IMG/VR virus record: IMGVR_UViG_3300008261_000032
Span: 1 to 64,000 of that record
DNA: 64,000 nt
DNA from: a virus
Reading direction: 5' to 3' (one strand)
Below, piece by piece: positions 548 to 31,798 of this stretch. A program made the position numbers and the translations under genes. Every line of letters begins with the position of its first letter. Position 1 is the stretch's first letter. The notes beneath the pieces were generated by a model. That model did not search any database, was not told where the DNA came from, and saw only the letters and a list, made by a program, of their open reading frames with translations.

Positions 548-814
548 TTACCACTTTGGTTCTGCTTTTGTCCAGTCGTCTTTCTTTGGTGCTGGCTTTG
601 CTGCCGGTGCTGCTGCACCACCGCCCGAACCACCCTTGACTGTATTGTTGTTTTCAAGGTTAATAACTACTGGTGCGGCTGCTGGTGGTGGGGTTGTTGC
701 TTCATCACCACCCATCAATTGCTTACCAATAACACCTGCGATTGCGGTTACAATAATGGTTACTAAACCAATGATTGCGTTCTTTAATCCACCACCTGAA
801 CTTTCTTCTGACAT
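548..814 (-). CDS. Hypothetical single-helix membrane protein with Pro/Ala/Gly-rich tail, 88 aa
   Basis: An N-terminal membrane helix (residues ~12-30, NAIIGLVTIIVTAIAGVIG) is followed by a low-complexity Pro/Ala/Gly region and a C-terminus rich in Lys, Asp and Trp. A GGAGAAC ribosome-binding site precedes ATG at 814. Likely membrane-anchored; function unknown. It is in operon order with the flanking membrane and exported proteins. Confidence 0.75.
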   Translation of the reverse strand: MSEESSGGGLKNAIIGLVTIIVTAIAGVIGKQLMGGDEATTPPPAAAPVVINLENNNTVKGGSGGGAAAPAAKPAPKKDDWTKAEPKW

Positions 815-5738: not shown

Positions 5739-5756
5739 TTCTGTTTTTATAACCAA

Positions 5757-5839
5757 TGCCCAGGGCGAGACTCGAACTCGCAAGACCGTAAGGCCGGCAG
5801 ATTTTAAGTCTGCTGTGTATACCATTCCACCACCAGGGC
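5757..5839 (-). tRNA. tRNA-Leu (anticodon TAA)
   Basis: Class II tRNA with a long variable arm; anticodon loop CTTAAAA on GCAGA/TCTGC; acceptor GCCCTGG/CCTGGGC with one T:T mismatch; discriminator A. Confidence 0.93.
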
Positions 5840-5849
5840 AACTTAGATG

Positions 5850-6066
5850 AAAAATCCTCCCATTGGGTTAGGGAGGAACCTATCTATTATCCTAGCTGTC
5901 ATCCTCAGCGTAGGTTTATCTCGTCAATTGACACGCTTCTCGTCGGAAACTTCCCCTGTGCCGTTATGGTGGCATCTCAACAACGAGGGGTCAAGCGGAG
6001 CGGGGGCATAACATCCGACCCCGGATAGTTCCATAACTACTTCCCTTCACTTGTCAAACACTTAAC
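5850..6066 (-). ncRNA. Candidate structured non-coding RNA inside the tRNA cluster (~217 nt)
   Basis: A 343-base interval between tRNA-Leu and the next small gene holds no plausible reading frame, but is bounded by a near-perfect sigma70 promoter (see 6073-6101) and an intrinsic terminator (CCTCCC, 9-base loop, GGGAGG, then ATTTTT at 5876-5850). Internal stems visible by eye on the minus strand: TAGTT-ATGG-AACTA, GGGGTC...GACCCC, CTCGT...ACGAG, TGCC...GGCA, AGCGT...ACGCT (enclosing GTCAATTGAC) and GCTG...CAGC. It does not show tmRNA, RNase P or tRNA features. Function unknown; the coordinates of both ends are predicted. Confidence 0.6.
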
Positions 6067-6072
6067 ATCTTA

Positions 6073-6101
6073 AATATATACTAGACTACTGCGTTTGTCA
6101 A
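6073..6101 (-). promoter_or_regulatory. Sigma70 promoter of the candidate non-coding RNA
   Basis: Minus strand TTGACA (6101-6096), 17-bp spacer, TATATT (6078-6073). Predicted RNA start near 6066. The downstream sequence has no ribosome-binding site or reading frame. Confidence 0.75.
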
Positions 6102-6132
6102 GTCCCATCTCAATATATAGTATTTAATCAAA

Positions 6133-6181
6133 TAATAATATGTAATTATTTTCTAAATTTGACAATTTTTACATATTATTA
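6133..6181. repeat. AT-only inverted repeat
   Basis: TAATAATATGTAA (6133-6145) is repeated inverted as TTACATATTATTA (6169-6181), 13 of 13 matching with a 23-base loop. It begins just after the stop codon of the 36-residue gene and may act as a weak 3-prime-end hairpin of its mRNA. No gene is seen between it and the promoter at 6073-6101. Confidence 0.6.
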
Positions 6182-6182
6182 A

Positions 6183-6293
6183 TTACTTACGTTTCTTCTT
6201 ACCAGTCTTAACAAATGCAGATTTAACAGTTACACGTTTGAACCCGCCACCCTTTGCCTTTATTTTACGTGAATGTGATTTACGAATTGTCAT
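6183..6293 (-). CDS. Very basic 36-aa protein
   Basis: The frame encodes MTIRKSHSRKIKAKGGG, then a Lys-rich C-terminus ending GKKKRK. About 14 of 36 residues are Lys or Arg, with no acidic residue. A GGAG site 8 bases upstream of the ATG supports translation. Composition suggests a nucleic-acid-binding peptide; no family recognised. It sits between the non-coding RNA and tRNA-Ser. Confidence 0.75.
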   Translation of the reverse strand: MTIRKSHSRKIKAKGGGFKRVTVKSAFVKTGKKKRK

Positions 6294-7693: not shown

Positions 7694-7891
7694 TTATTGT
7701 GTCTTATACCCTGGATCTCTTGGGATAACCATCCAACACAACAGATAAAATACTACCGCAGGAAGTGGAGAAAAAAATGCGGCGACGAAGAGTAACCGTA
7801 TAAGAGTTGGGTCAATTTCTAATGCTTCAGCGAATCCACCACATACCCCAGCAATCTTGTTTTCTTTGTTACTCAAATACACACGTTTCAT
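7694..7891 (-). CDS. PspC-domain membrane protein, 65 aa
   Basis: The protein begins MKRVYLSNKENKIAGVCGGF and continues AEALEIDPTLIRLLFV, the hallmark of the PspC domain, followed by a membrane helix (~38-58) ending CWMVIPRDP. In bacteria PspC senses or signals inner-membrane stress. Start ATG 7891 has AAGGAG upstream; longer readings pass through tRNA-Asp. It is a single-domain version placed between tRNA-Met and tRNA-Asp, perhaps interfering with host membrane-stress sensing (inference). Confidence 0.85.
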   Translation of the reverse strand: MKRVYLSNKENKIAGVCGGFAEALEIDPTLIRLLFVAAFFSPLPAVVFYLLCWMVIPRDPGYKTQ

Positions 7892-7913
7892 AACACACTC
7901 CTTGACGGTGAAA

Positions 7914-7987
7914 CGGAATGGACGGGACTCGAACCCGCAACCACCGCAGTGACAGTGCGGTGCGCTAACCAATTGCGCCACCACTCC
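7914..7987 (-). tRNA. tRNA-Asp (anticodon GTC)
   Basis: Acceptor GGAGTGG/CCATTCC, discriminator G as usual for Asp, anticodon loop CTGTCAC on CCGCA/TGCGG. Confidence 0.95.
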
Positions 7988-30202: not shown

Positions 30203-31798
30203 ATGCCAGATAATAATATCACGCAATTTCAAATATTGAGAGGTAGTCAAGGCCAGAATGATGTATATACTGGCCGGCCGGGTGAATTATCAGCAGATAT
30301 TAGTTTATATGAACTAAGATTGCATGATGGTACCACCCCCGGCGGGCACATCATTGGCGGTGGTGGCATCGGACCACAAGGAAATACAGGTCCACAAGGT
30401 GCACAAGGACCGTCAGGTGGACCACAGGGCCCACAAGGCCCAGCGGGCTCTAGTGGGCCCCAAGGCCAATCCGGTGTTATGGGGTTGCCTGGCGTACAAG
30501 GACCGCTGGGGCCACAGGGTGTTCAAGGTGACCAAGGACATCAAGGGGTAAGAGGATATCAAGGATTACAAGGCCCACAAGGACATCAAGGCATCCAGGG
30601 ACCCACAGGGCCACAAGGTAGTCAAGGTGATGTTGGCGTGATGGGTCTTCCTGGTATACAAGGTTATCAAGGGCCCTTGGGTCCACAAGGTATTCAAGGT
30701 CCACAAGGTGTTGCGGGTGTAATGGGTCTTCCTGGTATACAAGGTACCCAGGGACCACAAGGACAAACTGGCCCGCAAGGCATTGGTTCACAAGGTGTTG
30801 CGGGTGTAATGGGTCTTCCTGGAATGCAGGGTAACCAAGGCCCATTTGGACCGCAAGGTAGTCAAGGTCCGCAAGGTGATGTAGGTGTTATGGGTCTTCC
30901 TGGTGTACAAGGTATGCAAGGACCGGCAGGGCCGCAGGGACCACAAGGTGATGTAGGTGTAATGGGTCTTCCTGGTGTACAAGGTATGCAGGGAAGTACG
31001 GGTACACAGGGTAATCAAGGTCCATTAGGTAACCAAGGATTACAAGGACCGCAAGGTGTTCAGGGTCCACAAGGAAATCAAGGACCGCAAGGACGCCAGG
31101 GCCCACAGGGGGATGTCGGTGTAATGGGTCTTCCTGGTATACAAGGTTATCAAGGATTACAAGGCCCTCAGGGCAACCAAGGACCGCTTGGACTACAAGG
31201 TAATCAAGGACCGCTTGGACCACAAGGAAATTTGGGACCACAAGGCAATTTGGGTCCACAAGGCCGTCAAGGCCCACAAGGCAATCAGGGGCCGCAAGGT
31301 GTTCAAGGTGATATAGGTAACCCAGGTCCAACTGGTCCACAAGGTAGACAGGGACCGCAAGGTAATCAGGGTCCACAAGGGCGGCAAGGTTCAGAAGGTA
31401 CGCAAGGTGACACCGGTGCACAGGGCAGACAAGGCCCACAAGGAAACCAAGGCCCAACCGGACCTACCGGACCTACCGGCCCAACAGGCCCACAAGGATT
31501 CCAAGGATTTACTGGATTAACGGGCCCGACAGGTTCACAAGGTAATCAAGGACCAACTGGCAACACTGGTACAACTGGTCCACAAGGTGCTACTGGTGCG
31601 CCAGGATCACCCGGACCTACAGGCCCACCAGGAGCACAGGGGGATACTGGTGCACAAGGATTCCAAGGATTAACCGGACCCTCTGGTTCTGGTGTCCCAT
31701 CCAACCCATGCGGAACTGGTGTATATTATTTAACGTGGAATTGTAGTACGAATCAAGCAGAATGGAAGTGTTTAGACTTAAATGACGCTTGTGCATAA
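30203..31798 (+). CDS. Collagen-like tail-fibre protein, 531 aa
   Basis: Residues 1-55 hold a phage fibre N-terminal motif ([20 protein letters not shown], then [14 protein letters not shown]) that attaches fibres to the tail. Residues ~56-495 are about 145 Gly-X-Y triplets, rich in GPQ, with the longer unit [10 protein letters not shown](V/I)QG recurring. The last ~35 residues have three Cys (NPCGTG, WNCSTN, WKCLDL, DACA) and probably cap the trimer. Collagen-like triple helices give rigid fibres. First of three structural genes on the plus strand; ATG 30203 has GGAGG 25 bases upstream (weak). Confidence 0.88.

Follow-up and report, generated by a model that had tools for sequence, protein, structure and literature searches.

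The locus raises the question of what occupies the 342-base interval at 5841-6182 of the window (the whole 64,000-nucleotide stretch of viral DNA analysed, part of a 70.7-kb IMG/VR record), between a tRNA-Leu gene (5756-5840) and the stop, at 6183, of a 36-aa ORF. The 21 tRNA genes of the window, all on the minus strand, lie within 5.4-10 kb. Since the RNA region adjoins a DsbA gene (Pfam Phage_DsbA), whose relatives are mostly in T4-like Vibrio phages, and the window also encodes a clamp-loader subunit, the virus is a T4-like phage. An earlier reading made from the letters alone (the sequence-only reading) had given the interval 343 bases, one too many, and had proposed that it encodes a structured phage RNA with its own promoter and terminator. 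The features at the locus are as follows.

5845-6066, minus strand: predicted non-coding RNA gene, from the predicted 5′ end to the 3′ tail, based on homologues and covariance models and without an Rfam match
6037-5845, minus strand: conserved core of the RNA
6073-6101, minus strand: sigma-70-type promoter, TTGACA (6101-6096), 17 nt, TATATT (6078-6073), predicted start at about 6066
5756-5840, minus strand: tRNA-Leu(UAA), the next gene after the RNA in all homologues
6183-6293, minus strand: very basic 36-aa ORF, upstream of the RNA promoter

The promoter and the terminator of the sequence-only reading both held up. The TTGACA-17-TATATT promoter matches the sigma-70-type consensus at 11 of 12 positions, only 10 sites as good occur in the 64-kb window (both strands counted), and it stands ahead of the RNA unit in all 15 loci examined, one of which matches at 10/12 (TAGATT). 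The terminator, UCCUCCC-9 nt-GGGAGGA followed by UUUUU (5877-5850, minus strand), has a folding energy of -12.0 kcal/mol, equalled by 4 of 200 shuffled sequences; a simple terminator scan with a loop limit of 8 overlooked it because its loop is 9 nt. The thermodynamic folding of the whole RNA was unremarkable (minimum free energy z = -0.25). Free energy alone gives no support for the RNA; its support is comparative.

The same RNA was found in 20 other phage contigs (21 with the window), the carriers being large freshwater viruses of bacteria. In L003, reached via the neighbouring methyltransferase, a copy with 83% identity occupies the equivalent position, and those in L010, L037 and L038 were obtained with patterns from conserved blocks. 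A covariance model of the first four sequences, all of the window's clade (R1), was run over 30 loci, nearly all of them reached through the neighbouring DsbA protein, and recovered divergent copies, scoring 34-93.6 bits, from another 16 contigs, which reduce to 10 distinct sequences. A second model (R2) was trained on just these ten, all outside the window's clade; in turn it scored 96-106 bits (E 1e-26 to 1e-29) against the window, L003, L010 and L037, with 105.8 bits (E = 7e-29) for the window. The homology is therefore reciprocal, since R1 finds the other clades and R2 finds the window's own. The family comprises 14 distinct full-length sequences and one with an internal deletion (L038). 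The full-length sequences fall into three clades: W (window, L003, L010, L037), A (L098, L100, L101, L103, L104, L107, L109) and B (L116, L117, L121). Their identity to the window RNA is about 70-93% (aligned positions of global alignments), and all belong to one phage lineage. BLAST searches at E≤10 gave nothing convincing for three homologues against GenBank phages or for the window RNA against plasmids, and pattern scans of bacterial and archaeal genomes gave no match. The pattern matches L009, L011-L036 and L039-L042 were rejected on inspection as chance for missing context. Weak covariance-model matches in L088/G011 (15.8 bits, without a tRNA and without the loop), in a Karamvirus (12.8 bits, within a CDS) and in LR745206 were rejected too.

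When segmented, the 14 sequences show one layout from 5′ to 3′: a strand K1 (GUUNNNG), P2, P3 around P4 around P5, P6, P7 and a short tail. In the window these elements are as follows.

6031-6037, minus strand: 5′ strand of pseudoknot PK1, GUUAUGG, partner of the P5 loop
6001-6023, minus strand: P2 hairpin, CGGGG (6023-6019) with CCCCG (6005-6001)
5928-5994, minus strand: P3 helix, UUGAC (5994-5990) with GUCAA (5932-5928), enclosing P4 and P5
5939-5987, minus strand: P4 helix, CUCGUUG (5987-5981) with CGACGAG (5945-5939)
5959-5974, minus strand: P5 hairpin, UGCC (5974-5971) with GGCA (5962-5959); its loop CCAUAAC (5969-5963) supplies the 3′ side of PK1
5891-5914, minus strand: P6 hairpin, CCUACGCU (5914-5907) with AGCUAGG (5897-5891), loop GAGGAUGAC (5906-5898)
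5850-5877, minus strand: P7 hairpin, UCCUCCC (5877-5871) with GGGAGGA (5861-5855), followed by a U-run (5854-5850)
5845-5850, minus strand: 3′ tail, UCAUCU, proposed to pair, as PK2, with GGAUGA (5904-5899) of the P6 loop

These elements keep their pairing while their letters change. The middle pair of P2 is G-C, C-G or U-A; the inner three pairs of P3 are GAC/GUC, GAU/AUC or GGC/GCC; clade W has CUCGUUG/CGACGAG as P4 where clades A and B have CUUACG/CGUAAG; the P5 stem occurs as UGCC/GGCA, CACC/GGUG and UAUC/GAUA. P6 has 8 different stems among the 14 homologues, every one complementary, around an invariant loop GAGGAUGRC. PK1 (K1/P5 loop) occurs as GUUAUGG/CCAUAAC, GUUGCGG/CCGUAAC and GUUGUAG/CUACAAC, with both-sided change at three pairs; in the 14 homologues 98% of its cells are paired in register, against 6-80% when one strand is slid by up to six, and these counts rest on the hand segmentation because K1 is misaligned in the R2-fitted alignment. 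In that alignment 96.4% of cells are paired and 21 of the 36 nested pairs show both-sided change, a number reached in none of 500 shuffles, and the covariation score is 0.473 as against 0.183 in shuffles (again 0/500). The sequences are related, and both the hand segmentation and the R2-fitted alignment are biased towards the structure; a MAFFT alignment of clades A and B, unfitted to structure, still gave 10 both-sided pairs (0/500 shuffles). In summary, comparison establishes the fold P2 to P7 with pseudoknot PK1, and since the shape is kept while the sequence changes, the RNA is real and functional.

A second pseudoknot, PK2, between the invariant P6 loop (GGAUGR) and the 3′ tail (YYAUCY) is probable. 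All six pairs are kept in 14 of 14 homologues, and the sixth is A-U in the window's clade versus G-C or G-U elsewhere; as this pair is the only informative change, PK2 is probable rather than proven. The comparative evidence thus describes a new architecture of six hairpins or helices, PK1 and probably PK2. The fold drawn in the sequence-only reading differed from it and had no pseudoknots, and three of its six stems were kept: CTCGT/ACGAG is P4, TGCC/GGCA is P5 and GCTG/CAGC is part of P6. Of the others, GGGGTC/GACCCC and AGCGT/ACGCT are not conserved among the homologues, and TAGTT/AACTA competes with a covarying pseudoknot strand. Two further helices were set aside, CUUACC/GGGGAAG for lack of clear covariation by eye, and an outer helix from RNAalifold (columns 29-34 with 235-240), which pairs with the terminator U-run and is unsupported in the other clades. 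A likeness of the P5 loop to helix 69 of 23S rRNA was dropped, because this loop is variable and takes part in PK1. In clade A (L098 6706-6730 and relatives), the P5-loop sequence ACUACAAC recurs, exactly or almost, in the 3′ region, which could therefore hold a competitor for the PK1 strand; the repeat is absent from clades B and W. The L038 copy (~625-740, plus strand) lacks the P3-P5 centre (~130 nt), the deletion lying between short GGTTG repeats, and may reflect natural decay or misassembly; unless it is misassembly, the RNA can decay.

The strand follows from P7, which has U-G pairs in 10 of the 14 sequences; on the opposite strand these would be C.A mismatches, and the RNA is hence assigned to the minus strand. 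The sequence-only reading had seen no plausible reading frame in the interval. A 36-aa ATG ORF does exist in the sense strand of the RNA (5924-6034); in each of the 14 homologues all sense frames are broken, so that no sense reading frame is conserved. Taken together, the reciprocal covariance models, the both-sided changes and the interrupted frames show that the minus-strand non-coding RNA gene in the interval 5841-6182 is real, as had been proposed.

We then compared the RNA with known classes. Rfam cmscan of the window returned only tRNAs at gathering scores and nothing credible for the RNA up to E = 10. With two homologues included, there was no match to GOLLD or ROOL (gathering and E≤10), nor, for three homologues at E≤10, to RNase P, 6S, SRP, T-box, riboswitches or CsrB-like RNAs. 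Neither ARAGORN nor Rfam detected a tRNA or tmRNA in the interval, in agreement with the absence of tRNA, tmRNA and RNase P hallmarks noted earlier. Small RNAs of phage tRNA regions are known from T4, whose RNAC and RNAD (species 1 and 2 RNA) are encoded in the tRNA region and have roles that are unknown (PMC3014915) and were detected by Northern blot (PMC9697503). The RNA described here likewise lies in the tRNA region of a T4-like phage. RNAC and RNAD differ from it in their lengths (139 and 119 nt) and their place after tRNA-Arg, and RNAC ends, by eye, in a tRNA-like T arm, which the window RNA lacks. R2 gave no match in the tRNA region when run over the whole T4 genome, and nothing convincing in T4, KVP40 and six other named phages. 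GOLLD is an orphan structured phage RNA often near tRNA islands, with many members of >800 nt that form RNA-only cages, and ROOL is a large orphan RNA, also often near tRNA islands, with multiple pseudoknots (PMC12286853). The window RNA resembles both as an orphan structured RNA of a phage tRNA region, and ROOL also in having pseudoknots; it differs from GOLLD in being ~200 nt long and without a match to an Rfam library that includes GOLLD; its core (198-211 nt including a few flanking bases) is below the several hundred nt of either. ROOL is much larger than this RNA. The putRNA of phage HK022 is a structured RNA near the start of the phage transcript (PMC9378689). It and other antitermination RNAs are like the window RNA in these two respects. 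The put element is shorter than the window RNA and acts in cis, of which the window RNA gave no sign. Being non-coding, with a covarying structure and within a phage tRNA array, the RNA belongs with the tRNA-island orphan structured RNAs as a kind, not as a homologous family. No description of it was found in literature titles and abstracts outside subscription papers. Hence, as the tests made detected no homology to the known RNAs of this niche, we regard it, on this comparative evidence, as a new family within a known kind.

The gene order around the RNA differs between clades. In clade W it is promoter, RNA, terminator and tRNA-Leu(UAA), and in clades A and B promoter, tRNA-Lys(UUU), RNA and tRNA-Leu(UAA). 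P7 is thus an intrinsic terminator in the window's clade only; the other clades, 10 of the 14 distinct sequences, keep the hairpin without the U-run, and the earlier view of a free-standing gene with its own terminator applies to clade W and not to most relatives. The core starts ~3-30 nt past tRNA-Lys and ends 4-9 nt ahead of tRNA-Leu in clades A and B (3 to ~20 nt and ~5 nt in clade B). Lying between two tRNAs without a terminator, the RNA should therefore be released by tRNA processing. A group I intron (Rfam, 60 bits) lies inside the adjoining tRNA-Leu(UAA) in L003 (2150-2336, plus strand) and L010 (5269-5455, minus strand), and L003 has an HNH-like ORF at ~1485-2165.

We lean towards the view that the product is a stable, trans-acting structural RNA. 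A discrete, compact non-coding RNA of ~195-220 nt, belonging to a T4-like phage lineage, would be produced alongside the phage tRNAs under a strong host-type promoter, in the window's clade as its own transcript and in clades A and B by release through RNase P on its 3′ side and 3′ tRNA processing on its 5′ side. It is presumably stable, because both ends would be held in pseudoknots. During infection it would act in trans, showing a rigid surface to a protein or the translation machinery, with the invariant GAGGAUGRC loop and the conserved strands GGGGAAG and GAYAAAC perhaps at the centre of this surface; a comparable role is suspected for further orphan RNAs that phage tRNA islands encode. 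We favour trans action because the RNA persists in two transcript contexts, would have both ends in pseudoknots and keeps its loop invariant. One clade gives the RNA a promoter and a terminator of its own and the others place it, with no terminator, between two tRNAs, an arrangement that a discrete product also fits better than a terminator-based switch; a sister phage that has tRNA-Leu(UAA) but no copy of the RNA likewise counts in favour. A more specific version is put forward tentatively. In it, this compact RNA with two pseudoknots, once freed by tRNA processing, would stand for a new functional class of phage RNA and might remodel host translation or RNA processing, or protect the phage tRNAs, as soon as infection begins.

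Three points weigh against this reading: the RNA can decay if the L038 deletion is natural, thermodynamic folding is unremarkable, and every homologue belongs to a single phage lineage. Moreover, a cis element would be expected to keep just as strictly to its place ahead of tRNA-Leu(UAA). A cis-acting leader might work through attenuation at P7 or through a put/EAR-like effect on the polymerase, and would control either how far transcription reads through into the tRNA-Leu(UAA) unit behind it or how that unit is processed; it would explain why the RNA always heads a promoter unit directly 5′ of this tRNA. In clade W, tRNA-Leu needs read-through, because a terminator intervenes and a near-consensus promoter is absent there, and GAGGA of the P6 loop could pair with the 5′ arm of P7. 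Against this, most sequences lack the U-run after P7, and Rfam gave no leader, riboswitch or T-box match. In addition, tRNA-Lys-Ile-Met-Leu(UAA) lie within a few nt of one another in the sister phage G047 (166 kb), which has no copy of the RNA, so that the tRNA does not need it. We consider the leader, the main rival, doubtful.

In two clades the RNA sits snugly between tRNA-Lys and tRNA-Leu, as would a passive spacer or folding scaffold that separates adjacent tRNA precursors for processing; neighbouring tRNAs of the same arrays do without one at distances of a few nucleotides, and such a role has no need of covarying pseudoknots, which makes it improbable. It seems very improbable that the RNA uses GGA/GAGG motifs to sequester CsrA/RsmA-type proteins or to act as an anti-Shine-Dalgarno decoy: the RNA has several GGA motifs and the invariant loop includes AGGAUG, which is near the CsrA consensus core, but GGA persists across clades only in the GGGGAAG strand, in the P7 arm and in the P6 loop, the last of which is probably taken up in PK2. 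A decayed mobile element or intron fragment, suggested by the adjoining group I intron in L003 and L010, can be virtually dismissed, given compensatory changes in a covarying fold of its own, no Rfam intron match and conservation in phages without the intron.

Large tRNA arrays occur commonly in phages, and to our knowledge RNAC and RNAD of T4 have gone unexplained for decades. The present RNA adds to the same niche a further family, unrelated to these two, that is testable because its fold is well supported, its ends are defined and its promoter is strong. If it acts in trans, tRNA arrays would also carry structural RNAs, and tRNA processing could mature them.

The basic 36-aa ORF upstream of the promoter, without a Pfam or PHROG match, has syntenic homologues upstream of the RNA in L037, L038, L098, L100, L101, L103 and L109, and is not beside it in L003, L010, L104, L107, L116, L117 and L121. 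It was rejected as an obligate partner, being missing beside the RNA in at least seven loci; it is possible that it encodes an RNA-binding protein that partners the RNA without being obligate. Between this ORF and the RNA promoter, an A/T-rich inverted repeat of ~50 bases (6133-6184, 81% self-complementary) is perhaps a terminator. Elsewhere in the window, a PspC-domain protein (7694-7984, minus strand; Pfam E 3e-20) is encoded among the phage tRNA genes, and 30203-31798 (plus strand) encodes a 531-aa collagen-like protein with GPQG-type repeats.
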